DNA from: Ardenticatenales bacterium | GTDB lineage: Bacteria > Chloroflexota > Anaerolineae > Epilineales > Epilineaceae | Direction: 5' to 3' | Assembly: GCA_020853525.1 (NCBI GenBank) | Contig: JADYYS010000028.1 | Span: 1 to 64,000, forward strand | Length of the DNA: 64,000 bases | Shown here: positions 15,627-62,960 of the stretch, in pieces | Numbering within the stretch: the first letter of the stretch is position 1 | Layout: every line of letters starts with the position of its first letter | Notes under the pieces: model-generated | The model's database searches: none | Seen by the model: only the letters and a program-made list of their open reading frames with translations | What the model was told of the DNA's origin: nothing | Translations under genes and position numbers: made by a program

Positions 15627-16019
15627 CTACTTCGACACCGGTCGGTACGGCACCTCGATCGTCGGGCCCGAGACATCGTCATCCGTCGCATCCGTGCCGA
15701 CGACCGGGGCACGTCGCCCGTCCGCATATGGACCTGCCAGGCGGTTGAACGCCTTCAGCGCCAACAGCACCACGAAGAAGTCGTCGACGAGGCCGAACGG
15801 GCCGATGATCGCTTCGGGCAGCACGTCGATCGGCGACAGCAAGTAGAGCGCGGTGAGCACCGGGATCGCCTTCTGCCACGCGGGCACGCGTCCGTCGCGC
15901 AGCAGCCGCCATGCCAGGCGGCCTTGATCGGCGATCTCGGACAGACGGTACGGTCGCACTTCGGCGCCGCCGTCCTTGACACGGCTTGTCGGGTCGCTGC
16001 TGTCCGGGTTGGGGTTCAC
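15627..16019 (-). CDS. DUF1232 (YkvA-like) membrane protein
   Basis: 130 residues. The DUF1232 signature occupies about residues 40-85: IPVLTALYLLSPIDVLPE then GPFGLVDDFFVVLLAL, two hydrophobic segments that probably lie in the membrane. YkvA-type proteins have no established biochemical function. The GTG is preceded by GAGGAGCG and overlaps the stop of the solute-binding protein gene by 4 bp (GTGA), making it the last gene of the vWA/propeller cluster. Confidence 0.8.
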   Translation of the reverse strand: MNPNPDSSDPTSRVKDGGAEVRPYRLSEIADQGRLAWRLLRDGRVPAWQKAIPVLTALYLLSPIDVLPEAIIGPFGLVDDFFVVLLALKAFNRLAGPYADGRRAPVVGTDATDDDVSGPTIEVPYRPVSK

Positions 16020-17902
16020 GGTGCGCTCCTCGATCGGGCGGGTCCGGCCTGCGTGGCGGTCGGCGGGACGGGTGATGGGGACGGCGGCGTGGGGGATGGA
16101 GTGGCCGCCGCCGTGGTGGTCCCGGCCGGCGCCGAACCGTTCGGCGACCCGACCGTCGGCACGGGGGCATTCTCGACGACTGTCGGCGTGGCGGTGGGCG
16201 GCAGGAAGGACTCGAGCGGCGGCGGCGGCGAGGCATCGGCCGCCGGCTCCGTCAGGCTGACGCCGGCGAACGCATCGTAGCCCATCGCGCCGGGCAGATA
16301 GCCCTGCACGCGGCTGCCGACGGCCACGATCGGGCGCGCGTTTGCCAGGAAGATCCGCGGCATGTCGGCGGCGACGAGGGCTGCGGCGCTCTCGTACAGC
16401 GTGCGGCGGCGGTCCGTCCGGGCGGTCGTCCGCTGCGCCTCGAGCAGAAGCTTGAACAGGTCGTCGTTCTCGTAGTGGCCCTCGGTGTTCGTGTTCGCCG
16501 GGCCGAAGTGCCAGTACCACATGCTGTCGGGGTCCGAGGTCTGGGCCTCCCAGCCGATCAGCCAGGCGCGGTACGCCCGGTCGCGGTTGTCGAGGAGCCG
16601 GCGGGCGCTGATCGGGTTCACGCTCGCGTCGATCCCGATGGCCTTCAGCATCCCGACGATCGCCCCGGCCGTGCCGAGCGGGTCCGGCAGGTAGGGCCGT
16701 GGCTGGTCCGGTACCCAGATCCGCAGCGGAAACCCTTCGGCAAGGTCGGCCTCCGCCAGCAGCGCCTTGGCGCGCTCGACGTCCGGCGCCGGCGGCTGGA
16801 GGTTGTCGTCATGCCCGAGGAATCCGGGCGGGAGGAGCTGGTTGCTCGGAAGCGCCTGGCTGCCGAAGTGGGCGCTCGCCAGCGCGGTGCGGTCGATGGT
16901 CAGGTGGATCGCCTCGCGCACGCGCTTGTCGGACAGCGGGCTGGCCGACGTGTCGAGCATCAGCCACGCGCTCGCGCGCGCCGGCCGCGGCACGAGGCGC
17001 AGGCTCGGCGCCGCCAGCGTCCCCGTCGTGGCCATCGTCGGCGTGAAACCGGCGCCCGCGACGACGCCCGCGGCCACGGCATCGGCGCGCCGACCGGCAT
17101 CCGGGATGGCGGCAAAGACGACGTTCGGCGTCTTGGGCGCGCCGCCCCAGTAGCGGGCGTTCGCCTCGAGCCGAACAACGCCGCTGGCCTTGTCCCACGA
17201 CGCCACGCGATACGGCCCGCTGCCGACAGGGAGGTGCTCGCCGTCGGCGCCGTACGCCTCGCCCGCGGCGATAACGGCGCGATCGCTCGCGATGCCGAAC
17301 GCCGGGTTCGCCAGGTGCTGAACGAACGGCGCAAACGGCTGGCGCAGCGTGATCCGCAGCGTGAGCGCATCCAGCGCCTCGACCTTCTCGACGATCCCCT
17401 TGTCGTCGTGCGTGCCGAACAGCGAGAGCCACTGCAGGAATCGCCCCTTGTGCTGCGGGTGGTCCGGCAGCAGCCAGCGATCGAAGTTCCACTTCACGGC
17501 CCGCGAGTCCAGCGGCGTGCCGTCCTGGAACACGACGCCCTTGCGCAACGTGAACGTGTACGTCTTGCCGCTCACGTCGGCGTCCCAGTTCTCGGCCAAG
17601 TCGCCCACGATCTCGAGGCTATCGCCGTTATACCGAAACAGGCCGTCGTTCACCTGATTGGCCACCTGGAGCGCGGCCAGGTCCGTGCCGGCCCGCGCCG
17701 CGTCGAGCGTCGTCGGCGCGGAATCAAGCGCCCAGACCAGCGCCCGCGGATCCGCGGTGGCGGCCGGCGCGGGCGGCGGCGGACCGAGCGGCGTCGGCTG
17801 GCCGGTGCAGGCGGCGAGGGCCGCAGCGCCGGCCAAGCCGATGCCTGAGGCGATGCACCGCATTGGATGCACGAACCGACCCGCCCTGTCCCTCACCGGC
17901 AT
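16016..17902 (-). CDS. family 5 extracellular solute-binding lipoprotein (oligopeptide-type), orphan
   Basis: 628 residues. A lipobox (ALAAC, Cys at residue 32) predicts a lipid-anchored protein; an internal ATG at nt 17863 would give a more typical n-region. The SBP_bac_5 fold is clear: NDGLFRYNGDSLEIVGDLAENWD, TYTFTLRKGVVFQDGTPLDS, VGSGPYRVASWDK, REAIHLTIDRTAL, and a C-terminal GWEAQTSDPDSMWYWHFG. Such proteins usually deliver peptides to ABC permeases, but none lies nearby. A roughly 60-residue Thr/Pro/Ser tail is appended beyond the fold, unusual for this family. It overlaps the vWA gene upstream and the DUF1232 gene downstream. Confidence 0.85.
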   Translation of the reverse strand: MPVRDRAGRFVHPMRCIASGIGLAGAAALAACTGQPTPLGPPPPAPAATADPRALVWALDSAPTTLDAARAGTDLAALQVANQVNDGLFRYNGDSLEIVGDLAENWDADVSGKTYTFTLRKGVVFQDGTPLDSRAVKWNFDRWLLPDHPQHKGRFLQWLSLFGTHDDKGIVEKVEALDALTLRITLRQPFAPFVQHLANPAFGIASDRAVIAAGEAYGADGEHLPVGSGPYRVASWDKASGVVRLEANARYWGGAPKTPNVVFAAIPDAGRRADAVAAGVVAGAGFTPTMATTGTLAAPSLRLVPRPARASAWLMLDTSASPLSDKRVREAIHLTIDRTALASAHFGSQALPSNQLLPPGFLGHDDNLQPPAPDVERAKALLAEADLAEGFPLRIWVPDQPRPYLPDPLGTAGAIVGMLKAIGIDASVNPISARRLLDNRDRAYRAWLIGWEAQTSDPDSMWYWHFGPANTNTEGHYENDDLFKLLLEAQRTTARTDRRRTLYESAAALVAADMPRIFLANARPIVAVGSRVQGYLPGAMGYDAFAGVSLTEPAADASPPPPLESFLPPTATPTVVENAPVPTVGSPNGSAPAGTTTAAATPSPTPPSPSPVPPTATQAGPARSRSAP

Positions 17903-20900
17903 AGCGCCTTGCCCGCGATCGCCGTATAGATCGACCGCAGCGCGGCGCCGTCGCTGGCCGCGAACGTGCGGGCGGACGTGCCGGCGACCGTGCGCAGCAG
18001 GGCGGCGTCGAAGTCCGTACCGAGGCCGATCGTGTAGACCGTGAAGCCGAGGCTGCGCGCGTCCTTGGCGGACTGCAGCACGGCGGCCTCGGTGCCCGGC
18101 GTCGGCCGGCCGTCCGTCAGCAGGACGATGACCGGCACGTTCGCCTTCTTGTGGCGGCTGCTGAGCAGCTCGCGCGTGGACTCCTTGAGCCCAAGGTCGA
18201 TCCGCGTACCGCTGCCGTTCGCGACCGCGTTCAGCGCCAACTCGAGCGCGCCGCGGGCGCCGGTCAACGGTTGGGCGATCCTGGCCGTGCTGTTGAACGA
18301 GACGATGGCCGCCTGGTCCTCGGGCAGCGCCATCTGGCTGAGGAAGGCGCGCACGGCGTCCAGGCTGACCTGCATCTTGTTCAGCCGGCTGCCCGGCCCG
18401 CTCGGCTCGAGCATGCTGTTGGAGGTGTCGATCGCCAGGACGATGTCCGCCCGCTGGGGCCGGCAGACGCTCTTGTAGGCCAGCGGCAGGAACCAGCGGT
18501 CGGTACGGCTGACATTGATCTCCGGGACAGGGAACGTGCCCGTGCCGGACACGCCGGTGACGTCGACGTAGCCGATATCCGCGCGCTCGTTCGTCGGCCG
18601 AAGGCCGATCTGGCTCGGCCGGACGGTGTACGTCAAGCGCATGCCCGAGATCGGCACGTCTGTCAGCTGCCACGTGAGCGTGTGCACCGCCGCATCCCAC
18701 GCCGCCGGCGGCACGGCCGAGCCGACCTCGTAGCGCATGTCCGGCGGCAGGACGTCCGTCACGGTGGCGGTGCGGAACAGCTGCGACACGCTGATCCGGC
18801 GGCCGATGTCGGCGTATACGGCCGCCAGGTCGAGCTCCGAGTTCGCGACGTAGTAGCGGTCCGACGAGCTCGCCATGCGCGTCATCAGGTCGGTGTCGAT
18901 ATCGGCGCCGAGGCCGATCGTGTAGAGGGTGATCCCTTTGGCCTTGATCTGCTCGGCGACGGTCAGCGCCTCGGTGCGGTACGTCGGCCGCCCATCCGTC
19001 ATCAGCACCATGACCTTCGGCACGCCCGGGCGGGCGCCGGCGCCCTCGAGTTCGCTCAGACCGGCTCCGAGGCCGAGGTGGATGCTCGTCTGCCCGGCCG
19101 GCGAGAGCTGGCGGATGCCCTTCACGACGTCGGCGAACTGCAGCGTCATCGGCTGGATGACGTCGGCGACCGTCGAGAACCCGATGAGTGCGATCTGCGC
19201 CGCGCCCGGCGCGAGCTCGCCGAGGAAGGCCAGCGCGCCGTTCTTGGCGCCGACGATCGCCGGCCCGGCCATCGAGCCCGAGCGGTCGATGACGAGCGCG
19301 ACGTCGATCCGGCCGTCGCCTTGCGGGCAATCGCCGTTCGCCAGGAGCGCCACCGTCACCTCTTCACCGACCTTGGCCGTCGGGGGCGCGGCGCGCTTGT
19401 CGAGTGTCACGCTGCACTTGGTGTCGACGGCCTGCGGCACGTTCGTCGGCGGTGCGCCGCCGGGTGCGAAGACGAGGATGCGATCGTGCGTCGGATCGGC
19501 GATGTACACCCGGCCGCCCGGACCGGCCGCCAAGTCGGCCGGCAGCACCGTCCGGTCGCCCGCGACGGGGGCGATCGGACGGAAGGCGGCGACGAGCGCG
19601 CCGGAGGCATCGTGCTTCCAGACCCAGCCGTCGCCCGACAGCGCGTACAGGAAGCCCTCGGCCGCCGCGACGCGCACCGCGCCGCCGGGCACCGTGACGC
19701 CGCGCTGCCGCGCGCCCGCCGCGTTGTACACCCCGACCTCGCGGCCCGTCCGGTCGGCCAGGTAGATCGACGCGCCGTCGATGGCGATGTCGCTGACGAC
19801 GCCGAAGCCGCGCGCCGACGGAATCGGCCACTGCCGCACGACGGCGCCGGCGCCATCGAACGTGAACACCTGCTGCCGGCCGATGTCGACACCGACGGTC
19901 TGCGTTCCGGCGGCGTCGACCGCCGTGAAGGCCATGTCCGGCGCAAGGTTGAGCGACCACCTGGCGACCGCACCGGCACCGAAACAGGCGAGGCGCGTGT
20001 CCGTCAACGCGCACGGCCCGACGTCGGAGCCGCCGGCGACGTCGCTGACGAGCGCGGCGTCCCACTGCGCTTCCGGTGCGCCGGCCGACGACCAGCGTTG
20101 GATCCGGCCTTCGGCCGCCGAGGTCTGGTCGGCCGGGAAGTCGGCCATGAACACGGCGCCGCCGTCGTCGACGGCCACGCGCGACGGGCGGACGAGCTTG
20201 CCGAGCGACGTCGGCTGGGTGCCGAAGGGCAGGAATCCGCCGGCGAGCGCGCCGCGGTCGGCCAGCCGGAGGATGCCGGTGTAGCTGCCGGAGCTGACGG
20301 TCGCAACCAGCCCGCCGGCCGGGCCCGTCGAGAGCCACATCCCGCCGCCGAGCCGGGCGTCGCCGGCGTACTTGCCGTCGGCGGCCCAACTGACGAGCTT
20401 CTGTTCCCCGTCGCTGCCCGGCACGCTCAGGCAGTCCTGGCCCGCGGCGATCATCGTGCCGAAGATCCGACCCTGCGCATCGACGTCGACGTCGGCCAGC
20501 AGCGGACCCTCGATGGCCGCGCGGACGCGCAGGAGCGCGCTCACCTTCTTGTTCGTCCAGATGTAGACGCCGCTGTCGGCCGCCATGAAGACGCGCCCGT
20601 CGGCCCCGACGTCGAGTCCGCACGCCTTCTGGATCGTGATCCCGGTGTCGGACCACGTCTCGAGCAGCGTGCCGGCGGCATCGCGCACATCGATGACGGC
20701 CTGCGGTCCGAACGCGCCCGGGCCGAGCCGTGAGATGTACACCCGGCCGTCCGGTCCCGTCCCGATGCCGGTCATGCCGACCTGGGCGAACGTGCCGACG
20801 ATCGCCCCGGCCCGGGTACGGACCTCGCCGCTGGTGCGGCTGATGACGTACACGCGGCTGGCCGTGACCGCCACGTCGATCGGCTCCTGGCCGGCGGTGA

Positions 20901-21168
20901 CGTCGAAGCTGGCGATCTGCCGACCGGCGGCGTCCAGGTGGTACACCTTGCGCGCCGCGCGGTCGACGGCATAGACGGTGTCGTCGGAGGCGGCATCGAG
21001 GCCGCCCGGCGTCCGGAAGACGATGACGCCCGTCGCCGCACGCGTCGACCACGTGTCGACGAGCTGATACCCGCCCAGTGCGCCCTGTGCGGCCGGTGCG
21101 GCCGACGTCCCGCCGGCGGCGGCGAGCGCCACGGCGACTCCGATGAACCCGGCGACGGCGCGCTTCAT
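17893..21168 (-). CDS. giant secreted NHL beta-propeller protein with two vWA domains (copy C)
   Basis: 1091 residues with a signal peptide (MKRAVAGFIGVAVALAAAGG). Residues about 30-590 form beta-propeller blades (e.g. VDVDAQGRIFGT, VAVDDGGAVFMADFP). vWA domain 1 (about 620-800) has the MIDAS start DRSGS and LMTDGRPTY; an Ig-like DUF11-type linker follows (VLPPDMRYEVGSAVPP ... FPVPEINV); vWA domain 2 (about 905-1090) has DTSNS and LLTDGRP. Intact MIDAS residues predict metal-dependent ligand binding at the cell surface. It ends in CR. It overlaps the solute-binding protein gene by 10 bp. GAGAGGTGAGG precedes the ATG. Confidence 0.85.
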   Translation of the reverse strand: MKRAVAGFIGVAVALAAAGGTSAAPAAQGALGGYQLVDTWSTRAATGVIVFRTPGGLDAASDDTVYAVDRAARKVYHLDAAGRQIASFDVTAGQEPIDVAVTASRVYVISRTSGEVRTRAGAIVGTFAQVGMTGIGTGPDGRVYISRLGPGAFGPQAVIDVRDAAGTLLETWSDTGITIQKACGLDVGADGRVFMAADSGVYIWTNKKVSALLRVRAAIEGPLLADVDVDAQGRIFGTMIAAGQDCLSVPGSDGEQKLVSWAADGKYAGDARLGGGMWLSTGPAGGLVATVSSGSYTGILRLADRGALAGGFLPFGTQPTSLGKLVRPSRVAVDDGGAVFMADFPADQTSAAEGRIQRWSSAGAPEAQWDAALVSDVAGGSDVGPCALTDTRLACFGAGAVARWSLNLAPDMAFTAVDAAGTQTVGVDIGRQQVFTFDGAGAVVRQWPIPSARGFGVVSDIAIDGASIYLADRTGREVGVYNAAGARQRGVTVPGGAVRVAAAEGFLYALSGDGWVWKHDASGALVAAFRPIAPVAGDRTVLPADLAAGPGGRVYIADPTHDRILVFAPGGAPPTNVPQAVDTKCSVTLDKRAAPPTAKVGEEVTVALLANGDCPQGDGRIDVALVIDRSGSMAGPAIVGAKNGALAFLGELAPGAAQIALIGFSTVADVIQPMTLQFADVVKGIRQLSPAGQTSIHLGLGAGLSELEGAGARPGVPKVMVLMTDGRPTYRTEALTVAEQIKAKGITLYTIGLGADIDTDLMTRMASSSDRYYVANSELDLAAVYADIGRRISVSQLFRTATVTDVLPPDMRYEVGSAVPPAAWDAAVHTLTWQLTDVPISGMRLTYTVRPSQIGLRPTNERADIGYVDVTGVSGTGTFPVPEINVSRTDRWFLPLAYKSVCRPQRADIVLAIDTSNSMLEPSGPGSRLNKMQVSLDAVRAFLSQMALPEDQAAIVSFNSTARIAQPLTGARGALELALNAVANGSGTRIDLGLKESTRELLSSRHKKANVPVIVLLTDGRPTPGTEAAVLQSAKDARSLGFTVYTIGLGTDFDAALLRTVAGTSARTFAASDGAALRSIYTAIAGKALCR

Positions 21169-21280
21169 GCCTCACCTCTCCACCATGATGGCTCGTGCCG
21201 AACGCCGGTCGGCGCCCGCATTTCGGAAACCTCTGAACACCGGGCGCCGGTCCGGCGGGCCGCCCGACCGAGCGTCCCGA

Positions 21281-24200
21281 TCACCGGCCGCACGGGATCG
21301 CCCGCGCGATGGCGCGGTAGATATCGGCCAGCACGGCCTCGTTCGGCGCCCGGAACGCCCGCCCGGCGACACCGGCCACCTCGGCGAGAAGTGCCTGGTC
21401 GGCGTCGGGACCGAGGCCGATCGTGTAGATCAGGATGCCGCTGGCCCGCGCGCCGGCGGCCGCGGCGCGGACGGCCTCGGGCGTCGTGCCGGACGGCTGG
21501 CCGTCCGTGAGGAGGACGATGGCTTGCAGGCGGTTCGTCACCCGCTCGCCGAGCGCGGCGGCCGCGGCCTCGATGCCGAGGTCGATGCGCGTCCCGGCGC
21601 CGGTCGGCAGCGTGTCGAGGGCACGGGCCAGCACGCCGATGTCGCTGCTCGGACCGCTGACCGTCGTGGCCGCACCGTTGAACGCGACGACGGCGACGCG
21701 GTCGCCCGGCAGCTTCAGGTTCGACAGGAACACCTTGGCAGCGTACACGGCCGCGTCGAGCTTCGTGCCCGTGCCGCCGCCCGCGGGTTCCTGCATGCTG
21801 TTCGAGGTATCGATGACGAGCGCGATGTCGAGGCGGATCTCGGGGCAGTGCTCCTTGTAGGCCACCGGCAGGAATGCGAACCAGCGCTCGGCGACCCGGA
21901 CCGAGACCTCGGGTACCGGGAACACGACGCTGCCCGGCACGCCGACGCCGTCCACGTAGTCCGCGGAGGCCGAGACGTTCGTCGGATGGCGGCCGACGGC
22001 CTGCGGGCGAAGCTTGTAGCGCAGCCGCAGCCCGGCCGGTGACGCCGGGCCGACGGTCCAGCCGAGCGTGCGCGTCGCGGAATCCCATCGGGCCGGCGGG
22101 ACGGCCGATCCGCCGATGTAGGCCATGTTTGCCGGCACGACATCCGTGACGACGGCCGACTGCAGCAGCGACGACGCGCCGACGCGCCGCGAGATCCGGT
22201 CGTAGATCCCGACGAGGTCGTACTCGGTCGGCGCCTCGAAGTAGAAGTTGGGGGCGGTGGCCACGAGCCGCATGAAGCCACCGTCGACATCGAGGCCGAG
22301 GCCGATCGAGTAGACGTCGCGGCCCATCGCGCGGAACTGGTCGGCCAGGCCGAGCACGCCGCCCGCGGAGTCCGTCGGGCGGCCGTCGGACAACAGGACG
22401 ATCACCTGTCGGGCGCCGCGCCGGGCGCGCGGGCTGTCGAGCTCCTCGCCGGCCATCTGCATCGCCTGTGCCATGTTCGTGCCGGCGTCGTCGCCCAGCT
22501 CGGGGATCGCGCGGATCAGGGCGCGCGGGTTGCCCGTCAGCGGCTGGACGAGGTTCACCTCGGTCGAGAAGCTGATCAGCCCCACCTGATGGATTCCGTA
22601 GTCCAGCTGGCCGACGAACTCGAGGACCGCGGTCCGCGCGGCGCCCATCTTCGTGCCGCTCATCGAGCCGCTCGTGTCCACCAGGAGGACGATGTCGGCC
22701 GGGTTGTCCAACAGCGGGCACTCGCCGTCGATCGAGAGCGTGATCTCGGTCGTGTCGCCGAGGATGAGGTCCGTCGGCGCGGCGGTCTTGTCCCGCGCCA
22801 GCTGGCACTGCGGCTGGAAGTCCGGCGGCGTGGCCGGTTTGCCGCCCATCTCCGGGCCGTACACGCCGACGCGCCCGTCATCGAACGTCACGAAAGCGCG
22901 GTCGGCGGCGCCGGCGCTGACGTCCGTCGCACCGCGCGGCGTCGAGGCCTGCCAGAGCGCGCGCGGCGTGCCGTCGGGCGCCAGCTTCCAGACCCAGCCT
23001 TCGTCGATCAGGATGAACACGGCGCCGTCCGGGCCGACGTCGATCCTGCGGGCGCGACCGGGCACGGTGAAGCTGCCGATGAGCCGGCCGTCCGTGCGTG
23101 CCAGCATGTCCACCCGGCGCGCGGTGCGGTTGAGGGCGTACACGCGGTCGCCGGCGAGCGCGATGTCGCCGATCGACACGAAGCCGTCCGGCGGGCTGAG
23201 CGCAAAGTCGCTGCGCGGGTTGCCCGAAAAGTCGAGGATCCAAATGTGCTGGTCGCCCGTGTCGAGCACGGCGACGTCGTTGCCGTGGGCATCGGCGGCG
23301 GTCAGCCAACCGTACGGGACGGCGACATCCGGCCCGGTGGCGGGCGACTGCCACTGCCAGAGCGCGGTGCCGTCGCGGTCACGGAACATCAGCGTGCGCC
23401 CATCGAGGGTGTACACGCTGCCGCGGAGGCCGGCGGCGACGTCCTGCAGCGCGCTGGCCGTGAACTGGGCCTTCGTCGCGCCGGCCGCCGAGAAGTTCTG
23501 GACGCGCGGCCAGGCGTCGACGACCCAGACCTCGCCGTCGGCATTGCCGCTGATCCGGCGGGGCTGGCTCAGCTCGCCGAGCGCCGCGAACGGTCCCCCC
23601 CAGGCGTCCGACTTGGGCTCGATGTCCCGACGATCCGGGAAGTGGCGGACGCCCGTGAAGCCGAGCCGATGGTCCTGCACCGCCTGCACGAGGCCCGAGC
23701 CCGGCCCAACGGCCAGCCCGCGCCCGCCGGGCGAGCGGAACTCGACGGACGGCGCGGCGTCCGCGCCGCGGTAGCGGACGATGCCGAGCTCGGTCAGGAT
23801 GTACCGCTCCGCCGACGACTGCGTGCGGTCGACCGCGACGTCGATCGGCGGCAGGTCGACACCCTGGAACGTCGAGGCCGTCGTGGCCAGCAGCGTGCCG
23901 TCCGGATCGAAGGCCTTGACGGTGTAGCCGCCGATGCCGCCGCCGCCCGTGGCGACGTCCGCCACGTAGATCCGTTCGTCGCCGCCGGCCGCGACACCGC
24001 GCGGCGCGCCGAGCCGGTCCGCACCCCAGCGGTCGACGATGATGCCGGCCGTGTCGAGGACGACGATCTCATGGGGCGTCGCCAGCGAGACATACAGCCG
24101 GCCCTCCCACTCGGCGATGCCCATCGGCGTGCCGGGCACACTCCAGGTGGCCTTCAGGGCGCCGCCGTTGTCGAGCAGATGGATCTGATCGAGGTCCGGC

Positions 24201-24538
24201 TCGGTGACGTACAACGTGCCGTTCGTTGCGGCGACGTCCTGCGGCGCGCCGATCCGGCCCGCCCCCCAGACGGCGCGCGGATCACCGGCCGCCGTGAGGA
24301 CGTGGACGACGCCCTGGCCGCGGTCGGCGACGTAGATCGTGCCGTCCGGCCCAACGTCGATGCCCTCGGGTTGGCGGAATTGCCCGGGGCGGGCGGGCTG
24401 GACGGCGGAGCGCCACATCGCCACCTCGTGCCAGGCCTCCGTGAGGGGGGACTGGGCGAGGGCTGGGCGAGGGGCGGACGACGCGGTGAGCGATGTCGCC
24501 ACCGTCAGCACACACAAGAGGCATCGCTTTGCGTTCAT
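21281..24538 (-). CDS. giant secreted NHL beta-propeller protein with two vWA domains (copy B)
   Basis: 1085 residues, same architecture as its downstream neighbour. Signal peptide (CLLCVLTVATSLTASSAPRPALA), propeller blades from about residue 40 to 580 (e.g. PEGIDVGPDGTIYVADRGQG), vWA 1 from about 613 (DTSGSMSGTK, LLSDGRPTD), the Ig-like linker with VVPANMAYIGGSAVPPARW, and vWA 2 from about 900 (DTSNSM, LLTDGQPS). It ends IPCGR. The ATG overlaps the stop of the upstream paralogue by 4 bp. A 112-bp gap separates it from copy C. The likely location is the outer cell surface; the ligand is unknown. Confidence 0.85.
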   Translation of the reverse strand: MNAKRCLLCVLTVATSLTASSAPRPALAQSPLTEAWHEVAMWRSAVQPARPGQFRQPEGIDVGPDGTIYVADRGQGVVHVLTAAGDPRAVWGAGRIGAPQDVAATNGTLYVTEPDLDQIHLLDNGGALKATWSVPGTPMGIAEWEGRLYVSLATPHEIVVLDTAGIIVDRWGADRLGAPRGVAAGGDERIYVADVATGGGGIGGYTVKAFDPDGTLLATTASTFQGVDLPPIDVAVDRTQSSAERYILTELGIVRYRGADAAPSVEFRSPGGRGLAVGPGSGLVQAVQDHRLGFTGVRHFPDRRDIEPKSDAWGGPFAALGELSQPRRISGNADGEVWVVDAWPRVQNFSAAGATKAQFTASALQDVAAGLRGSVYTLDGRTLMFRDRDGTALWQWQSPATGPDVAVPYGWLTAADAHGNDVAVLDTGDQHIWILDFSGNPRSDFALSPPDGFVSIGDIALAGDRVYALNRTARRVDMLARTDGRLIGSFTVPGRARRIDVGPDGAVFILIDEGWVWKLAPDGTPRALWQASTPRGATDVSAGAADRAFVTFDDGRVGVYGPEMGGKPATPPDFQPQCQLARDKTAAPTDLILGDTTEITLSIDGECPLLDNPADIVLLVDTSGSMSGTKMGAARTAVLEFVGQLDYGIHQVGLISFSTEVNLVQPLTGNPRALIRAIPELGDDAGTNMAQAMQMAGEELDSPRARRGARQVIVLLSDGRPTDSAGGVLGLADQFRAMGRDVYSIGLGLDVDGGFMRLVATAPNFYFEAPTEYDLVGIYDRISRRVGASSLLQSAVVTDVVPANMAYIGGSAVPPARWDSATRTLGWTVGPASPAGLRLRYKLRPQAVGRHPTNVSASADYVDGVGVPGSVVFPVPEVSVRVAERWFAFLPVAYKEHCPEIRLDIALVIDTSNSMQEPAGGGTGTKLDAAVYAAKVFLSNLKLPGDRVAVVAFNGAATTVSGPSSDIGVLARALDTLPTGAGTRIDLGIEAAAAALGERVTNRLQAIVLLTDGQPSGTTPEAVRAAAAGARASGILIYTIGLGPDADQALLAEVAGVAGRAFRAPNEAVLADIYRAIARAIPCGR

Positions 24539-26970
24539 CGACACGGCTCCAGCGGCACGCTCGCCTCGGTCGGCACGGCGGCGGGGGTTGGGCGGCCGCA
24601 GCCGGACCACAGGGTGAAGCCGACGCGGACGTACCGATCGGCGCCGACCTGGGCGCTCGTGACGAGGCGGTCGGGCGGGCTGTTCGGGCAGCTGACGTAG
24701 CCGAGGGGTACCTGGGCCAGGCGGACGTGCCACGGCGGGGGCGTGCACAGGACGATGTAGGCCTGGCCGGGCGACGCGGGGACGGCCTTCACCGTGCCTA
24801 CCCAAAGAGCCGTGCCGCCCGCGTCCGTGACGACGACGGCGCCGGGCTGCTGCCAGGCATCGTGCTCCCAGCGATCGCCGGCCTGCCAGATGCCGTTGCA
24901 GCCGGGGCAGGCGTAGCCGCCGTAGCCGACCGCGTCCGGGAACACGTCGATCGCGAGCCGCCAGGACTGGCCGCGGGCGCACGAGGCGTCCGGCGGTGAA
25001 GCGGGGAGCGTTGCGGTGGGCGGCGGGCCGGCGGTGCGTGCGGGCGTCGGCGCGTCCGAAGTCGGGCCGGGGGTGGCGACCTCGCGGATCGACTCGAGGA
25101 CGGGCTCGGGGAAGGCGACCGTGCGGCGCGTGCCGTCGGCATCGGTGTAGAGGACACGGGCGCGGCCGATCGGCGCCTTGCCGGGCAGGTCCGCCTTGAG
25201 CGTCCACGTGAGCGCGAGGCCGTCGACGGGCAGGAGCGGGCGGGTCCACTGCAGGCGGTCGCCGACGAGCAGGGGCGGTTCGCTGTTGGGTCCGGGGACG
25301 TAGCGGACGAAGGGCGACGCCGGGACGTCTTCGATCGTGAGATCCGTCACGCCGATGGACTGGACGACGCGCAGGATCACGGCGTAGATCCGGTCGAGGT
25401 CGACGGTGTTCGGCGAGTAGAAGAAGTCTGCCTTGGAGCTGGCGATGTTCTCCATGAGGAGCGAGTCGATCGTCCGGCCGAGGCCGATCGTCAGGACGTA
25501 CGCGCGCCGGGCGCGGGCGCGCTCGGCCTGGGCGAGGGCGGCGGTGACGGGCTCCGGAACGTACGGTCGGTTGGGGGCGCCGTCCGTGAGGAGGACGACG
25601 ACGGGCAGCGCGCCGGGGCGGCCGTCGGTCGTGAGGTGCTGCATGCCGACCGCGAGGGCGTCGGCGATGTTCGTGCCGCTCTCACCCTGGTCGGGCTCGA
25701 GCGCGCCGACGATGTCGTCGAGCGCCTTGGCGTCGTCCGTCAGCGGCTGGCGCACGCGCGCCGTGGCGCTGAACGTCACGACGCTGGCGCGGTGGTGTCG
25801 CAGGTCGAGTCCGGACAGGAAGCGCCGGGCGGCGGCCTTGGCGCTCTCCATCCGCTTCTCCTGATACATCGAGGCGCTGGTGTCGATGATGATCGCGACG
25901 TCGGCGCCCGAGACCGCGTCCGGCGGGCAGCTGGCCGACAGCCGCAGCGTCACGACGGCGTTCGAGCACCGCGTGACGACGGGCGGGTCGACGGTCCGCT
26001 GGGCGGAGACGGTGCACGAGCCGCGTGCGCGGGGCGGGTCGGGCGGAACGGGCGTCGGCGCGGGCGGCGTGCCGGGCTCGTACACGCGGACGGAGCGGCT
26101 GTGCTCGTCGAGGACGTAGAGGATGCCGCCCTGGCCGACGGCGATGTCGGCCGGGTCGCCGGCGGCGAAAAAGCGCGCCAGCAGCGTGCCGTCCGGGCGA
26201 TGGACCCGCACGAGGCCGTCCGAGAAGAGGACGGCGACGACGACCTCACCGTCCGCCTGCAGGCCGGCGCCGATGCGGAACGGTCCGCTGGCCTCGAGCA
26301 TCGACCACGTCTGGTAGTCGTTCGGCAGATAGGGCGGCGGCCAGGCGAAGACGCTGCCGCCCATGAGGTCCGTGGCGAACAGCGTGCCGTCCGGGCTGGC
26401 CGTGACGTCGGCCGGGAAGCCGGCCTGCGCGGCGCGCGGGATCAGCTGACCCTCCACGCGGCCGTCGACGTTGCCGAGCCAGTGGAGGGCCTTCTTGGAG
26501 GGTTCGGTGAGCCAGATCCGGCCGGGCGACGCTGCCACGCCGCTGCCCGTCGCGCAGTCGCAGCGGCGCATCCAGACTTCCGCGCCCGCGGCGTCGAGCC
26601 GCCCGGCGCTGAACATCGGCTGGCCGGCGCGGGGCAGCGGGTTGAAGCGGCCGAGGTAGAGGCTGGCGTCGTCGCCGACGGCGAGGTCGAGGGCGTCCGT
26701 CGGGACGGTGCGCTCCTCGGCACGGCTGCCGTCCGGCAGCAGGGCAACGGCTTTGCCGGACGGGCCGTCGAGCAGCCAGATCCGGCCGTCGGGCGCCGCG
26801 GCCAGGTTCGCGGGCGCGGCGAGGCCGTGCGCGGAAGCCGGCCACTCGGCCGCCAGACGATAGCCCGGGATCGGGGCGGCGGGCGCGGCTGACGTGAAGG
26901 CGGCCAGGGCGGCGGCGACGGTGCCGAGCGCGATGGCGGCGCGGGCGAGGCGGCCGGGGCGAAGGAGCAT
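24535..26970 (-). CDS. secreted beta-propeller protein with one vWA domain (copy A)
   Basis: 811 residues from an ATG that opens a signal peptide (RAAIALGTVAAALAAFTSAA); the frame is open upstream but no ribosome site marks any start. Propeller blades occupy about 40-300 (NLAAAPDGRIWLLDGPSGK), one vWA domain about 353-530 (DTSASMYQEKR, LLTDGAPN), then the same Ig-like linker type as the other copies. In place of a second vWA there is a Thr/Pro stalk and a Cys-rich domain (CPGCNGIWQAGDRW) ending EPCR. First gene of the five-gene cluster; overlaps copy B by 4 bp. Confidence 0.8.
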   Translation of the reverse strand: MLLRPGRLARAAIALGTVAAALAAFTSAAPAAPIPGYRLAAEWPASAHGLAAPANLAAAPDGRIWLLDGPSGKAVALLPDGSRAEERTVPTDALDLAVGDDASLYLGRFNPLPRAGQPMFSAGRLDAAGAEVWMRRCDCATGSGVAASPGRIWLTEPSKKALHWLGNVDGRVEGQLIPRAAQAGFPADVTASPDGTLFATDLMGGSVFAWPPPYLPNDYQTWSMLEASGPFRIGAGLQADGEVVVAVLFSDGLVRVHRPDGTLLARFFAAGDPADIAVGQGGILYVLDEHSRSVRVYEPGTPPAPTPVPPDPPRARGSCTVSAQRTVDPPVVTRCSNAVVTLRLSASCPPDAVSGADVAIIIDTSASMYQEKRMESAKAAARRFLSGLDLRHHRASVVTFSATARVRQPLTDDAKALDDIVGALEPDQGESGTNIADALAVGMQHLTTDGRPGALPVVVLLTDGAPNRPYVPEPVTAALAQAERARARRAYVLTIGLGRTIDSLLMENIASSKADFFYSPNTVDLDRIYAVILRVVQSIGVTDLTIEDVPASPFVRYVPGPNSEPPLLVGDRLQWTRPLLPVDGLALTWTLKADLPGKAPIGRARVLYTDADGTRRTVAFPEPVLESIREVATPGPTSDAPTPARTAGPPPTATLPASPPDASCARGQSWRLAIDVFPDAVGYGGYACPGCNGIWQAGDRWEHDAWQQPGAVVVTDAGGTALWVGTVKAVPASPGQAYIVLCTPPPWHVRLAQVPLGYVSCPNSPPDRLVTSAQVGADRYVRVGFTLWSGCGRPTPAAVPTEASVPLEPCR

Positions 26971-27193: not shown

Positions 27194-27943
27194 TCAGCGG
27201 GGGGGATCGACGTCGATGGCCCCTGCGGCGCCGACGGAGCGGGCGTCGCCGCCGGGGTGGGCGATGTCGATGGCGCCCGGGTCGGCTGCGTCGGCGAACC
27301 AGACGGCCCGCGCCGGCGCACCCTCCGCGCCTTCGATCCGCAGCGGCAGGCAGACGAGCACGCCGTGTCCGGGCGGCGCCTCGGCCATCGCCAACCCCTC
27401 GACGGCGACGACGCCGGCGCCGAGGAGGACGACGTGCGGCGTGTCGGTATCGTCCCACGGTGCGATGGACGGGCCGTCGATCCCGACGAGGCGCACGCCG
27501 AGCGCCACGAGGTAGCGCGCGCCGCCGGCGGTCACGGCGACGAAATCGCGGCGGAACGGCCCTTCGTCACGTCCGTCGACGAGGCCGGCGGAGTTGCGGG
27601 TGCGGAACAGGATGCGGACCGCATCGGCCGGCAGCCCGCCGGCGGCTGCCAGCCGCTCCAGATAGGGTGCGTCGATCGCCCGGACGTCGTCGGGCACGTC
27701 GACGACGAAGGCGGGGCCGATGAGCACGGCGAGCGGGAGGGCGTCCACGGTGGCGCCGTCCGGGATGAAGTGGCGCGGCGCGTCGATGTGCGTGCCGAGG
27801 TGGAGCGTGGCGGAGAGGTGCGACAGGGCGTAGCCGTCGCCGGCGTCGTGGGTGGCGACGGGGGTGATGACGGGCGGGAGGTCGCCGGGCCAGACCGGGA
27901 GGTCGGTGGTGATCCGGCGGGTGAGGTCGATGGGGCGGGTCAT
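27194..27943 (-). CDS. cyclase-family metal-dependent hydrolase (kynurenine-formamidase-like)
   Basis: 249 residues. The metal-binding motif HLGTHIDAPRHF is at 48-59, the HxGTHxDxPxH signature of the cyclase/KynB superfamily; WPGDLPPV near the N-terminus and GVRLVGIDGPSI further on also fit. Members hydrolyse N-formylkynurenine or related amides, or act on cyclic substrates; the substrate here is not known, and no tryptophan-degradation genes are adjacent. The ATG overlaps the stop of the TolB-like gene by 4 bp (ATGA). Confidence 0.88.
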   Translation of the reverse strand: MTRPIDLTRRITTDLPVWPGDLPPVITPVATHDAGDGYALSHLSATLHLGTHIDAPRHFIPDGATVDALPLAVLIGPAFVVDVPDDVRAIDAPYLERLAAAGGLPADAVRILFRTRNSAGLVDGRDEGPFRRDFVAVTAGGARYLVALGVRLVGIDGPSIAPWDDTDTPHVVLLGAGVVAVEGLAMAEAPPGHGVLVCLPLRIEGAEGAPARAVWFADAADPGAIDIAHPGGDARSVGAAGAIDVDPPR

Positions 27944-29487
27944 CGGGGGGCGAGGGGTCTGGCGGGCGGGGGTGCCGCAGCCGTCGGAGCAAGCGTTCGT
28001 GCCGAAGTCGGAGCGGGAGCCGTGCCCGGGGGTGGCGTCACCGTCGGATCGCCGAGCGGCGTGGCCGCGAGTGCGAGCGGCAGGAACACGCGGCCGCCCG
28101 GCGCGGATGTCGGCACGTTCGACGTCGCGGTGGCGGGCGATGTGCGGGTGGGGCTCGGCGATGCGGTCGCCGTAGGGCGGGGGGTGTGCGACGCGGTCGG
28201 GAGCGGCCACGTCGGGGCGATGGGCGGGAGGGTGGGCTCGCGGGGTGGGAGGGTCGGGAAGGGGTTGAGGGTCGGGAACGGGGTGAGGCCGGGGATGGGC
28301 GGGGGGGTGGGCGTCGCGGGTGCGGCCGAAGGGGAGGGCGTGGCCGTCGTGGCGGGCGAGGGGTCGTCCGTCGGGGTCGGGCCATCGGTGGTGGGGAGGG
28401 GCGTCGGCGTCGGGAGGAGGGGGCGGCGGGCCCAGTCGGGCTCGCGGCCGGTCGTGAGGGCGGCGCGGGGGGTGGGTGCGGCGATGTCGAGGACGAATAG
28501 CTGCGGCACGTCGTTGCTCGTGGTCGGGCCTTCGACGACGATCTGGCGGCCGTTCGGCGACCACTTTGGGTTCGTTGGGTAGAAGTCGCGACTGCCTTGG
28601 ACGATGACGCCGACCTGCCCGGTCACGAGATCGAGCAGCCAGATGCCGCCTGGTGTCGGGGACGTGCCGGTGGGCGGGACGAAGATGCTGTCCCAGGCAA
28701 TGTACCGACCATCCGGCGACCACGCCGGGTTGAGATCCTCCCAGCCTGGCCGCGCCAGCAAGCGCCGCGCGCCGCTGCCGTCGCTGTTGACGATATAGAG
28801 CTCGCCGCCCCAGTTGGGGGCGGCCGGTTCGCGGTCGGACGTCACACGAACGACGAACACGAGCCGCCGTCCGTCCGGCGACCAGCGCGGCTGCTCGATC
28901 GTCGCGTACGGGCTCGCGAGCGGCGTCAGGAGGAGCTGCTGATCCGCGCTGCCCGGCACGACGATGTTGATCGACGAGATCTGACCCGGGCTGCCGCGCT
29001 CGAGGACGCTGCTGAAGGCGATCCGCGTGCCGTCCGGCGACCAGTCCGGGCTCGTGTCGTACGGGCCGAACGTGAGCGGAATCCTTATCGGCGCGCCGGC
29101 CGCGTCGTTGGCGAGGACCCAGATCGCCTCGTCGGCGCGAACGGGACCGTCGGACCGCGAGGCGACGAACGCCACCTGGGCACCGTCGGGGGACCAGTCG
29201 GGCAGGCGTTCGGTGAACTGCTCGGACGGCACGCCGGCGCCGCCGGTCAGCGAGCGGCGGCCGGTGCCGTCGGGGAGGATCGAGAAGAGGTCGATGGAGG
29301 CCGCGCCGTCCGCGAAGACGATCGCGTCGGTCGGGTCGGGATCGGGCTGCGCGATCGGTGCGGCACGCGTGGGGCGAAGCGGTGCCGGGGTCGCGAGGAC
29401 GGCGAGGGCGGCAAGCACGGCAAGCACGGCGCACGCGGTGGCGCGGCGGCCGGAGGGATCGGAGCGGGGCGCGGGGGCGGAGGGCAT
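27940..29487 (-). CDS. secreted TolB-like (PD40) beta-propeller protein with Thr/Pro stalk
   Basis: 515 residues. A signal segment (ACAVLAVLAALAVLATPAPL) precedes repeated PD40/WD40-like blades with the WSPDG core: LPDWSPDGAQVAFVAS, SPDWSPDGTRIAFSS, QPRWSPDGRRLVFV, NPAWSPDGRYIAW, NPKWSPNGRQIVV. The propeller ends near residue 340 and a long Thr/Pro stalk follows, then RVFLPLALAATPLG and another Pro/Ala tail. The RVFLPLA motif resembles the ends of other secreted proteins in the window. Likely surface-exposed; ligand unknown. It is cotranscribed with the cyclase-family gene through a 4-bp overlap. Confidence 0.82.
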   Translation of the reverse strand: MPSAPAPRSDPSGRRATACAVLAVLAALAVLATPAPLRPTRAAPIAQPDPDPTDAIVFADGAASIDLFSILPDGTGRRSLTGGAGVPSEQFTERLPDWSPDGAQVAFVASRSDGPVRADEAIWVLANDAAGAPIRIPLTFGPYDTSPDWSPDGTRIAFSSVLERGSPGQISSINIVVPGSADQQLLLTPLASPYATIEQPRWSPDGRRLVFVVRVTSDREPAAPNWGGELYIVNSDGSGARRLLARPGWEDLNPAWSPDGRYIAWDSIFVPPTGTSPTPGGIWLLDLVTGQVGVIVQGSRDFYPTNPKWSPNGRQIVVEGPTTSNDVPQLFVLDIAAPTPRAALTTGREPDWARRPLLPTPTPLPTTDGPTPTDDPSPATTATPSPSAAPATPTPPPIPGLTPFPTLNPFPTLPPREPTLPPIAPTWPLPTASHTPRPTATASPSPTRTSPATATSNVPTSAPGGRVFLPLALAATPLGDPTVTPPPGTAPAPTSARTLAPTAAAPPPARPLAPR

Positions 29488-29842: not shown

Positions 29843-32800
29843 ATGGGTTCGCGCATCGGAAACTTCGCCGCCCGGCTGGTCGAGACGGGCTGGCTGGCGG
29901 CCGTGATGGTCGTGCCGATCTTCTTCGACGTCTGGTCGAGCCGTGTGTTCGAACCTGACAAGCTGACGCTGCTGCGGTCGCTGGCCCTGCTCATCCTGGC
30001 GGCATCGTTCGTCGTCTGGGGGCAGTCCGGCATGCCGGCACCGACGCCGGCGCGCATCCGCGCATGGCTGGCGACGCCCCTCGTCGCCCCGGTCGTGGCG
30101 ATGACCGCCGCGATCGCGCTCTCGACGGCGCTCTCGCGGCTGCCGGCGCTCAGCGTGTGGGGCTCGTACAACCGCCTGCAGGGGCTGTACACGTGGTCGG
30201 CGTACGTCGTGCTGTTCGGGGCGATCGTCCTCTTCCTGCGCGACCGGGCGCAGCTCGAGCGGCTCGTGCTGGCGATCATCCTGCCCAGCTTGCCGATCGC
30301 GCTGTACGCCGTCGTCCAGCGCTTCGGCCAGGATCCGATGCCGTGGCTCGGCAACGTCACGCGGCGTGTGGCGAGCACGATGGGCAACTCGATCTTCGTC
30401 GCGGCCTACCTGATCATGGTCGTCCCGCTGACGTGGGTTCGGCTGGTGCAGGCATACCGCCGGCTCGAGGCGGACGAGAGCACGGCGGCGGTCCTGCGGC
30501 TGGCCGGCTACATCGTGATGGCGGTCGTCCAGATCCTGGCGATCGTCCTTTCGCAGAGCCGCGGGCCGTTCCTCGGGCTCTTGGCCGGCCTCGCGCTCAC
30601 GCTGCTCCTCCTCCTCGGCACGCACCGCCGCGCGCTGCGCGCGCTCCTCGCGGTCGGCGCCGTGCTCGCTGCGTTCCTCGTCGTCTTCAACCTGCCGGGC
30701 AGCCCGCTCGCCCCGCTGCGCGACGTGCCGTACATCGGCCGGCTCGGGCAGATCCTGCAGACCGAAAGCGGCACAGGCAAGGTGCGCGTCCTGATCTGGG
30801 GCGGCGCCAAGGACCTCTTCCTGTCCGACCCGACGCGGATGATCATCGGGCACGGCCCCGAGACGATGCACATCGTCTACAACCCGTTCTACCCGGCCGA
30901 GCTCGGCAGCCTCGAGTCGCGCAACGCCTCGCCCGACCGCTCGCACAACGAGACATGGGACACGCTCGTCCAGACGGGCGCCCTCGGGCTTCTGGCGTAC
31001 CTGTTCCTGTACGCCAGCGTGTTTTATGTCGCGCTCCGTGCGCTCGGCCTCATCGCCGGCGCCGCGGACCGCAACCGCTTCCTCCTGGCCTGGTTCGGCG
31101 GCGGCGCGGCGCTGGCCGGCGCGTTCGTCGCGCTCGAGGGCGTGGCGTGGTTCGGTGTGGCGCTGCCGCTCGGAATGGTCGTCGGCCTCGGGCTGTTCGT
31201 GGTCTACCGCGTCGTCTTCGCCGGCTGGACCCCGCCGGACGACCCGACGCGCCGGCTCCTCCTGATCGGCATTCTCGGCGGCATCGTCGCGCACTTCGTC
31301 GAGATCCACTTCGGGATCGCGATCGCCGCCACTCGGACGCTGTTCTTCACGTTCCTCGGCCTGCTGGCGGTCGTCGGCACGATGGCAGATGCCCGACCGG
31401 CGCTCCTGGCCGAGCCGGCGCCGGTCGGTGCCACGTCGGTGACCGCGGCGCTGCGCGCGGGCCAGCGCGGGCGCGGGCGGACGGGTGGGGCGCGGCGGCC
31501 CGGCAGCGCGCCGACCGGCGGCGGCGGGGCATCCTCGCCGACGCACGACTGGTTGGCGGCGGCGATGCTCCTCCTCGTCACGCTCTGCACGCTGGCCTTC
31601 GACTTCATCGTGCGTGCGCCGGCCGGCGACAAGATCTGGATCCTGCTCTGGCTCCTCTCGCTGTCGTGGCTCCTCGGCGGGCTCGTCGTCGGCAGCGAGG
31701 CGGCGACCCTCCGCGGCGCCGGTGCGCGTGGGATGTGGTCGTTCGTGGGCGTGACGCTGGCGGTCTACCTCGGCTACATCTTCGTTCACCGGAGCGTCCT
31801 CGGGAGCGCCGCCGCCGCCGCACCGGGCATGAATACGAGCGTCGTGCTGCTCCTGCTCTATTACGGCATGCTGCTCGCACTCCTCGTCGCCTGGGCGGCG
31901 ATCCTCAGCCGCGAGCTGCCGGTCGAGGACGAACGCCAGGCCACCGCGCACCGCCATCGCCCGGTCTATCTCTATCCGCTGGCCGCCATCGCCGCGCTCA
32001 TCCTGGTCTTCCGAACGAACGTCGACGTCGTTCGGGCCGACATCTGGTACAAGAACGCCTTCCAGGGCGAGCACGAGCGCGCGACGAGCGAGGTGAACGG
32101 CGGACAGTGGGACGAGGCCGACCAGAGCTTCCAGTCCGCCGTCGCGATCTACGACCGGGCGATCGACCTCGCGCCGCACGAGGATTACTACTTCCTCTTC
32201 AAGGGCAAGGCGCTCCTCGAGCGGGCGGACGCCAAGGCGAACCGCGTCGCGAACCAGATGGCGCTCGAAGGACGGGGCGCCGGCGACGACGAGTACGCCG
32301 ACGCCGAGATCGGCCTTGACGCCCAGGGCCGCGACCAGGCGTTCGAGGAGGCGATGGATGTCCTGATGACGGCGTACAGGATGTCGCCGCTGAACACGGA
32401 CCACTCCGCCAACCTCGGCCGCGCATATCAGATCTGGGGCGATCGCACGTTCAAGCCGGACCTGCGCTCGCAGCGGCTGGCCGAGAGCGTGAAGTGGTTC
32501 GAGGGCGACGGCGCCGACATCCCGGGGGCGATCAAGCTCACCCCGACGAACGCCGGCCTGCTGCGCGAGCTGGCGACGACGTACTACCTGGACGGTCAGG
32601 ACGAAAAGGCGCTGGCCACGATCGACCGCGCGATCGCGGTCGACCCGAGCTACACGGCGCCGCTGCGCCTCCGCGCCACGATCGCGGTCGAGCGCGCCAC
32701 CGCCAAGGTCCGCACGGACAAGGCGGCGGCGAAGCCCGACTTCGAGTCGGCCCAGAAGGACTACGAGGCCTATCTGGAGAGCCGCGACGGACGCGGCGAC

Positions 32801-33151
32801 CCGACCGCGTGGTCCGGGCTCGCCCTCGTCCGCGCCCAGCTGGGCGACGCGGACGGCGCACGCGAAGCGAACCTCAAGGTGCTCGAGCTCGCCCCCGGCG
32901 ACCTCGACACGCTGCGCAACCTGGCGATCCTCGAACGCGACGCCGGGAACATCCCGGCCGCGTGCGGATTCGCGACGCAGGGTCTGGCGGCCAACCCGTC
33001 CGACAGCGGCCTGCAGCAGCTCGCCGCCACGCTCGGCTGCTCGATGGAGGGGGATGGCGCCGGCGGCGCGGGCGCCGAAGGGGCAGGGAGCGACGGCACG
33101 GGTCTCGGCGACGGCAGCGGCGTGACGGAGACCGCGCCGGCGGCGCCCTGA
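29843..33151 (+). CDS. O-antigen ligase/polymerase (Wzy_C) membrane protein fused to TPR repeats
   Basis: 1102 residues. At least a dozen hydrophobic segments run from residue 15 to about 700. The Wzy_C-type loop holds RSHNETWDTLVQTGALGLL near residue 366, the conserved ligase/polymerase signature. From about residue 745 the protein becomes soluble TPR-like (NGGQWDEADQSFQSAVAIYD, AIDRAI-type helices) and ends in a Gly-rich tail. Such proteins ligate or polymerise undecaprenyl-linked glycans at the outer face of the membrane. GGAAAGG precedes the ATG. The two genes downstream supply lipid-linked sugar initiation and an acidic nucleotide sugar. Confidence 0.85.
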   Translation: MGSRIGNFAARLVETGWLAAVMVVPIFFDVWSSRVFEPDKLTLLRSLALLILAASFVVWGQSGMPAPTPARIRAWLATPLVAPVVAMTAAIALSTALSRLPALSVWGSYNRLQGLYTWSAYVVLFGAIVLFLRDRAQLERLVLAIILPSLPIALYAVVQRFGQDPMPWLGNVTRRVASTMGNSIFVAAYLIMVVPLTWVRLVQAYRRLEADESTAAVLRLAGYIVMAVVQILAIVLSQSRGPFLGLLAGLALTLLLLLGTHRRALRALLAVGAVLAAFLVVFNLPGSPLAPLRDVPYIGRLGQILQTESGTGKVRVLIWGGAKDLFLSDPTRMIIGHGPETMHIVYNPFYPAELGSLESRNASPDRSHNETWDTLVQTGALGLLAYLFLYASVFYVALRALGLIAGAADRNRFLLAWFGGGAALAGAFVALEGVAWFGVALPLGMVVGLGLFVVYRVVFAGWTPPDDPTRRLLLIGILGGIVAHFVEIHFGIAIAATRTLFFTFLGLLAVVGTMADARPALLAEPAPVGATSVTAALRAGQRGRGRTGGARRPGSAPTGGGGASSPTHDWLAAAMLLLVTLCTLAFDFIVRAPAGDKIWILLWLLSLSWLLGGLVVGSEAATLRGAGARGMWSFVGVTLAVYLGYIFVHRSVLGSAAAAAPGMNTSVVLLLLYYGMLLALLVAWAAILSRELPVEDERQATAHRHRPVYLYPLAAIAALILVFRTNVDVVRADIWYKNAFQGEHERATSEVNGGQWDEADQSFQSAVAIYDRAIDLAPHEDYYFLFKGKALLERADAKANRVANQMALEGRGAGDDEYADAEIGLDAQGRDQAFEEAMDVLMTAYRMSPLNTDHSANLGRAYQIWGDRTFKPDLRSQRLAESVKWFEGDGADIPGAIKLTPTNAGLLRELATTYYLDGQDEKALATIDRAIAVDPSYTAPLRLRATIAVERATAKVRTDKAAAKPDFESAQKDYEAYLESRDGRGDPTAWSGLALVRAQLGDADGAREANLKVLELAPGDLDTLRNLAILERDAGNIPAACGFATQGLAANPSDSGLQQLAATLGCSMEGDGAGGAGAEGAGSDGTGLGDGSGVTETAPAAP

Positions 33152-33170
33152 CCGGCGCCGCCGCCCCACG

Positions 33171-62875: not shown

Positions 62876-62892
62876 GCGTGCAGCTCTGAAAG

Positions 62893-62935
62893 AGAACGGG
62901 GCATCGCCAGGTCTCGCCTGGCGATGCCCCGTTCT
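62893..62935 (+). terminator. 19-bp perfect hairpin terminator
   Basis: AGAACGGGGCATCGCCAGG (62893-62911) pairs perfectly with 62917-62935 around TCTCG; GTCAT follows rather than a T-run. It separates the secreted Cys-rich gene from the last gene of the window. Confidence 0.65.
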
Positions 62936-62960
62936 GTCATCGCTTCTGAGGGGGTGGAGT

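Follow-up and report, generated by a model that had tools for sequence, protein, structure and literature searches.

A run of genes on the minus strand of a 64,000-nt stretch of DNA (the window, by which we mean the whole stretch that was analysed) raises the question of which of its members belong together, and of what the large secreted proteins at its centre do. An earlier note, made from the sequence alone, had described five of these genes as one surface system in which three propeller/VWA paralogues assemble and a solute-binding lipoprotein (SBP) takes up or senses a released ligand. We sought to establish which part of that description holds when the gene models, the predicted folds and the relatives of the proteins are considered together.

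A run of more than five genes on one strand

Gene models within the window were defined by open reading frame (ORF) calls and a Pfam search.

24535..26970, minus strand: gene A, secreted NHL propeller, Ig-split VWA and C-terminal Cys-containing domain, 811 aa (ORF, Pfam, model)
21281..24538, minus strand: gene B, secreted propeller region, Ig-split VWA1 and VWA2, 1085 aa (ORF, Pfam, model)
17893..21168, minus strand: gene C, architecture as in B, 1091 aa (ORF, Pfam)
16016..17863, minus strand: SBP, family-5 solute-binding lipoprotein, 615 aa (Pfam)
15627..16019, minus strand: DUF1232 protein, 130 aa, GTG start (Pfam)

ORFs and Pfam confirmed the three secreted propeller/VWA paralogues of 811, 1085 and 1091 aa, and the 4-bp overlap between A and B and the 112-bp gap between B and C proved to be exact as first described. 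The lipoprotein matched SBP_bac_5 (PF00496) with an E value of 5.6e-76, and the DUF1232 protein matched PF06803 with an E value of 2e-10 (40.7 bits against a cut-off of 23). An overlap of these two genes, also described before, is real and measures 4 bp. The overlap proposed between C and SBP, on the other hand, exists only if SBP starts at the ATG at 17902; with the ATG at 17863 the two genes are separated by a 29-bp gap. The start at 17863 is favoured because the N-terminus then carries the lipobox-type signal MRCIASGIGLAGAAALAAC, in which the lipobox LAAC occupies residues 16-19 of the 615-aa form. C and SBP lie ~0.3 kb apart in the relative G001.

All five ORFs are in place on the minus strand, but the run to which they belong exceeds five genes and reads PD40-cyclase-A-B-C-SBP-DUF1232-GNAT-R3H-TMK. 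A scan of the locus for promoters and terminators gave no informative signal in this ~72% GC sequence. Elsewhere in the window, the G+C content drops to 59% at positions 62001-64000, compared with ~72% in the remainder. The divergent neighbour of the cluster, at window positions 29843-35626, includes an O-antigen-ligase/TPR protein; as judged by eye, two further genes there resemble those for a nucleotide-sugar dehydrogenase and a WecA-like transferase, and all of these are possibly genes for a surface polysaccharide.

A, B and C as a conserved gene unit

Gene order was compared between the genome of the window (G000), two other genera of the same family (G001 and G002) and two order-mates from a different family (G005 and G006). 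One G002 contig is identical along all of its 8900 bases to QEVT01000156.1, from the MAG 'bacterium isolate UCB3', and UCB3 serves in the literature as the name of an order in Anaerolineae (PMC11748557); by kinship, the window most likely comes from this order of uncultured Chloroflexota. Orthologues in G001 and G002 were 56-57% identical for A, 51-53% for B (51% for the G002 copy) and 44-48% for C (44% for the G002 copy). Since orthologues in other genera retain 44-57% identity, the A/B/C pattern lies far above chance. The three genes are contiguous in G002, with the same order and orientation as in G000, and are flanked there by Tex-like and RelA/SpoT-like genes, without an adjoining SBP or DUF1232. 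In G001 the trio is split across two contigs by a break within B. The first contig carries PD40, cyclase, A and the apparent start of B, and the second carries the rest of B followed by C, SBP (52% identical), DUF1232 (42%), a GNAT-like gene and R3H. Taken together, the G001 contigs and the G002 locus indicate that two genera share one gene order all the way from PD40 to R3H, and that for A-B-C alone the shared order extends to three. The order of the trio is thus not peculiar to the genome in which it was first noticed. A strong match to R3H was not found in G002, whose assembly is 81% complete.

The genes downstream of C behave differently from the trio. SBP follows C in two of the three genera. 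DUF1232-GNAT-R3H-TMK is present in both G005 and G006, without A-B-C or SBP at that place, and in G005 a sigma-factor-like gene lies upstream of DUF1232. DUF1232 therefore belongs to an older neighbourhood, and we rejected it as a member of the cluster because it goes with GNAT-R3H-TMK in families that lack A-B-C. In a tree built from 61 Ig-VWA1 modules, A, B and C each formed a well-supported clade of their own with members from all three genera, and the subfamily that holds the A clade contained neither B nor C. Because these orthologue clades are separate, the trio must be old, and a recent local triplication was rejected. Of the conserved five-gene order that had been expected, the A-B-C portion stands in three genera, while SBP shares it in only two and DUF1232 is part of the older run. 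A-B-C is a true conserved gene unit, SBP and DUF1232 are probably mere neighbours, and the unit to study is accordingly A-B-C in place of the five genes.

Predicted domain anatomy of the three proteins

Pfam detected five VWA domains, one of them in A and a pair in each of B and C, and an NHL match that was above the cut-off in A and B and below it in C. Each protein has a secretion signal by sequence. AlphaFold2 models of A and B were compared with solved structures by Foldseek, and the domains assigned from these sources, all on the minus strand, were as follows.

26071..26865, minus strand: A, NHL-type beta-propeller, residues 36-300 (AlphaFold2; Z 26-28 against NHL domains)
25357..25914, minus strand: A, VWA with MIDAS, residues 353-538 (Pfam, AlphaFold2, Foldseek)
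24571..24993, minus strand: A, C-terminal Cys-containing domain, residues ~660-800 (recurrence in other proteins)
22850..24436, minus strand: B, propeller region, residues 35-563, probably two propellers (AlphaFold2, Foldseek)
22706..22816, minus strand: B, Ig-like first half, residues 575-611, with C578, K584 and C607 (model, conservation)
22172..22705, minus strand: B, VWA1, residues 612-789, MIDAS D621-S623-S625-T687-D718 (Pfam, conservation, model)
21887..22171, minus strand: B, Ig-like second half, residues 790-884, with D799, Y841, T853 and N854 (model, conservation)
21290..21847, minus strand: B, VWA2, residues 898-1083, bracketed by C898 and C1083 (Pfam, model, conservation)
18781..19314, minus strand: C, VWA1, residues 619-796 (Pfam)
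17899..18465, minus strand: C, VWA2, residues 902-1090, bracketed by C902 and C1090 (Pfam, conservation)

Modelled singly, as had been proposed at the outset, A and B each yielded a propeller and a VWA-in-Ig module. In the model of A, residues 36-300 match a six-bladed NHL fold across 240-258 residues with Z of 26-28, and the VWA domain is predicted to be set into an Ig-like sandwich made of residues 313-352 and 539-632. B and C probably carry two propellers each. Strands flank the VWA of the A model at 320-347 and 542-628; in the B model the two Ig-like parts run from 579 to 606 and from 792 to 881, VWA1 fills 614-787 and VWA2 covers 902-1083. Residues 246-320 of the B model have low confidence, and residues 641-811 of the A model are unreliable. 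The VWA domains are compact, at ~178 residues. When the two Ig half-domains were spliced together without the VWA, they gave a weak Pfam match to GBS104-like_Ig (best E 6.4e-4, below the cut-off) and another weak match to DUF11. A linker GSAVPP...FPVPE, previously thought to be shared by all three proteins, is exact only in B and C; it corresponds to the second half of the Ig-like domain that VWA1 splits.

The C-terminal domain of A had no Pfam match. With its CPGC and CPNSPP motifs it recurs in several proteins of the three genomes (L173, L174, L175, L178 and L180), and by eye it resembles SdrD/Cna-B-type beta domains.

Conserved metal-site and putative cross-linking residues

The DxSxS MIDAS start is intact in all five VWA domains of A, B and C, as had been noted, and in all 15 when both orthologues of each protein are included. 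Among 41 VWA1 modules, all have the MIDAS residues D, S, S and T, and 40 keep the last D. Mature B contains only four cysteines, all of them conserved, at 578 and 607 before VWA1 and at 898 and 1083 around VWA2. Two Cys pairs are conserved in each of B and C, and B-type pairs occur in 87-94% of the family. From this pattern we infer disulphides at the Cys pairs of B and C.

The Ig-like domain contains a further set of conserved residues. Most family members keep K584, D799, Y841, T853 and N854 (B numbering). Of 41 aligned modules, 35 have both the Lys and the Asn, and the Asn is never present without the Lys; the count comes from related sequences and is not a probability. Both residues are lost in the A clade. 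In Mfa5 of Porphyromonas gingivalis, strands B and C of an Ig-like domain are separated by an inserted VWA domain, and the Ig-like domain carries a Lys-Asn isopeptide bond, close to which lie Asp, Thr and Tyr residues (PMC7835359). The residue set points to a putative Lys-Asn isopeptide bond in the Ig-like domain of B, C and most paralogues.

Neither a sorting signal nor a strong hydrophobic helix close to the C-terminus, either of which could serve as an anchor, was found in A, B or C; the chains of B and C stop 2 and 1 residues, respectively, past the VWA2 cysteine. A motif [IV][FYW]LP[LV][AL] lies directly before this cysteine in many paralogues (for example L054:14594-16999 and L046:429-3854), often after a Pro/Thr-rich spacer, with 18 matches compared with 0 for the reversed pattern. 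The same motif is found near the C-terminus of the PD40 protein (window 27940-29487).

Multiplication of the module

Pfam found 115 VWA domains in the 4.27-Mb genome of the window, 112 of them above the cut-off. Among the matches listed, the three genomes of the family held 105-131 VWA candidates each, compared with 6-12 in order-mates and 0-19 in 53 class-mates, and protein B had 16-18 matches in each of the three. A profile search with the Ig-VWA1 module, in which matches in the genome of the window were listed down to ~E 1e-51, returned at least 37 near full-length modules there, 13 of the 37 having another within 5 kb, and 1-3 in each order-mate among the matches listed. At 1e-45 a module match was found in only 5 of 301 sampled Chloroflexota genomes, the genome of the window included, and no other listed genome of this sample came near it in the number of candidates. 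Among the genomes searched, multiplication to dozens of copies is confined to one bacterial family. A scan of a genome collection with the B sequence alone found no relative, and a 16-member family alignment was too diverse for scanning; a 6-member alignment returned one contig of the same family (from G002) and otherwise distant VWA proteins.

Other members of the family also have recurrent neighbours. A propeller/VWA member at L041:2044-9854 (G002) and L042:7265-15476 (G000) shows the same order of neighbours in both genomes, namely, by appearance, a lipoprotein-like gene, an ABC ATPase and a large FtsX/MacB-like permease, and this is a second conserved cluster. All three genera also have a gene for a CPBP/Rce1-like membrane protease that follows the gene of one A-like VWA protein (L086:404-4843, L091:4648-9055 and L092:3187-7378); for the protease, PF02517 was shown in the L086 copy.

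A probable role in metal-dependent adhesion

Predicted folds and structure matches agree with the earlier suggestion that A, B and C take part in binding or adhesion. We consider it probable, with ample room for error, that the three co-directional genes A-B-C encode secreted proteins of several domains which depend on metal, serve in adhesion or as matrix, carry load-bearing bonds and act in one extracellular structure. Ligand, assembly and surface anchoring are parts of this reading that we infer. Each protein would combine a signal peptide, an N-terminal NHL-type propeller and a complete-MIDAS VWA held in an Ig-like domain of the pilus-tip type, with an extra MIDAS VWA bracketed by a Cys pair in B and C, and a different Cys-containing domain at the end of A. 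Through a divalent cation, the MIDAS faces would hold on to an acidic ligand presented by an adjacent cell or by matrix, and the propeller would offer a second binding or docking surface. The disulphides, along with the isopeptide bond in B, C and most paralogues, would enable the protein to withstand load. A, B and C would act in the same extracellular structure, with SBP and DUF1232 outside the adhesion mechanism. With at least 37 modules in the genome of the window, the expanded family may provide a varied coat for adhesion or self-recognition. Both the missing C-terminal anchor and the loss of the isopeptide residues from A count against this reading, as does the occurrence of VWA domains in protein complexes that have nothing to do with adhesion.

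The VWA-in-Ig core is also that of pilus-tip adhesins, PilY1 likewise pairs a VWA with a propeller (PMC13190605), and the genome contains three sortase genes, all on other contigs. On these grounds A-B-C might encode subunits at the tip or surface of a pilus or filament of the PilY1 or sortase-pilus kind, with the machinery encoded elsewhere. We regard this as unlikely: PF05567, the PilC/PilY1 propeller, had no match in A, B or C at E 0.1, the domain order is the reverse of that in PilY1, neither a sortase nor a T9SS sorting signal was seen in the three proteins, and the locus contains no pilin or sortase genes, the neighbours being PD40, cyclase, SBP, DUF1232, R3H and TMK. It is very unlikely, in our estimate, that all five genes form an uptake or sensing system, in which A-B-C would capture or process a surface polymer, SBP would pass the released peptide or oligomer to a permease, and DUF1232 would be a membrane partner. 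Such a system would account for the C-SBP-DUF1232 order kept in G001 and for the 4-bp overlap of the last two genes, and a Dpp-type permease pair is indeed present elsewhere in the genome. There, at G000:C36, a related SBP (~32% identical) adjoins the two permease genes (DppB/DppC-like), so that uptake through a shared importer is possible and the SBP studied here may serve that permease; no permease gene lies beside SBP itself in the window or at locus L039. However, A-B-C stands without SBP or DUF1232 in G002, DUF1232 keeps its company with GNAT-R3H-TMK in families without A-B-C, and no enzyme domain was seen in A, B or C. The Dpp-type permease is not tied to A-B-C, and the uptake or sensing of a released ligand is at most a possibility.

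The dozens of diverged propeller/VWA paralogues could also constitute a strain-specific coat for cell-cell contact in multicellular growth. The confinement of the expansion to one family among the genomes searched would fit such a coat, as would paralogue groups that predate the genera, but orthologues in the three genomes are evenly conserved along their length (35-63% identity in the propeller parts of A, B and C and 47-66% in the VWA domains), unlike fast-changing specificity regions, and we judge this distinctly unlikely. A bolder version, also improbable, is that one bacterial family possesses a combinatorial surface-recognition repertoire with dozens of diverged members on an integrin-like plan, obligate sets such as A-B-C forming heteromeric adhesive complexes. 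If it were true, the plan would consist of a propeller, a VWA-in-Ig module and a second VWA.

Relation to known adhesins, pili and integrins

Under the adhesion reading that we prefer, the proteins belong with the MIDAS adhesins, and the N-terminal propellers, the lack of a visible anchor and the family expansion set them apart. A literature search on VWA expansion, NHL plus VWA proteins and Chloroflexi, in which subscription journals were thinly covered, found no system with the A-B-C set. Mfa5, RrgA, GBS104 and SpaC share with these proteins a complete-MIDAS VWA inserted into an Ig-like (D2) domain, predicted here, and, except in A, the Lys-Asn residue set with Asp, Tyr and Thr; Mfa5 in addition aligns with the predicted model over the whole module. 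A, B and C differ from them in their N-terminal NHL propellers, the second VWA of B and C, the Cys pairs, the compact VWA and the dozens of paralogues. Membership among sortase-pilus tips was rejected, since there is no sorting signal and no pilus locus. The best full-module match is 4FX5, a solved VWA protein of Catenulispora acidiphila (294-300 residues, Z ~26). Residues 575-885 of the B model matched it with Z 26.2, followed by ArnB (Z 24.8), ITIH1 (Z 24.1) and Mfa5 (Z 23.5), and residues 313-632 of the A model matched it over 300 residues with Z 25.8. The solved chain of 4FX5 shows one VWA and no propeller.

In PilY1 the VWA is N-terminal, and a seven-bladed PF05567 propeller forms the C-terminal part (PMC13190605). 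PilY1/PilC thus resemble A, B and C in joining a MIDAS VWA and a beta-propeller in one chain, and their adhesion is load-bearing, whereas the propeller of A, B and C is N-terminal and NHL-like. The absence of PF05567 and the reversed domain order led us to reject membership in the PilY1 group. Tandem VWA domains as in B are found in the mussel byssus protein PTMP1, which aligns to B 610-1085 with a large rmsd across both domains and hence has another domain orientation, and matrix-type VWA domains are found in von Willebrand factor A3 and collagen VI. These three are animal proteins without a propeller.

Integrins place a propeller beside a VWA set in an Ig-like hybrid domain and use this arrangement for cation-dependent adhesion; extended beta3 integrin stood at rank 50 in the structure-comparison list. 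They differ in having two chains, a transmembrane build and an FG-GAP propeller, and the resemblance is one of arrangement, an analogy and not shown descent. If the adhesion reading is right, A-B-C would extend the MIDAS adhesins by a branch that is soluble, lacks an anchor and bears a propeller, and its bacterial lineage would be one that sets aside at least 37 modules and more than 110 VWA domains, in a 4.27-Mb genome, for such proteins. It would also offer a lead, open to testing, on how uncultured Anaerolineae attach or form aggregates, and a comparison case for the way in which propeller-VWA adhesion could come about independently of the animal integrins.
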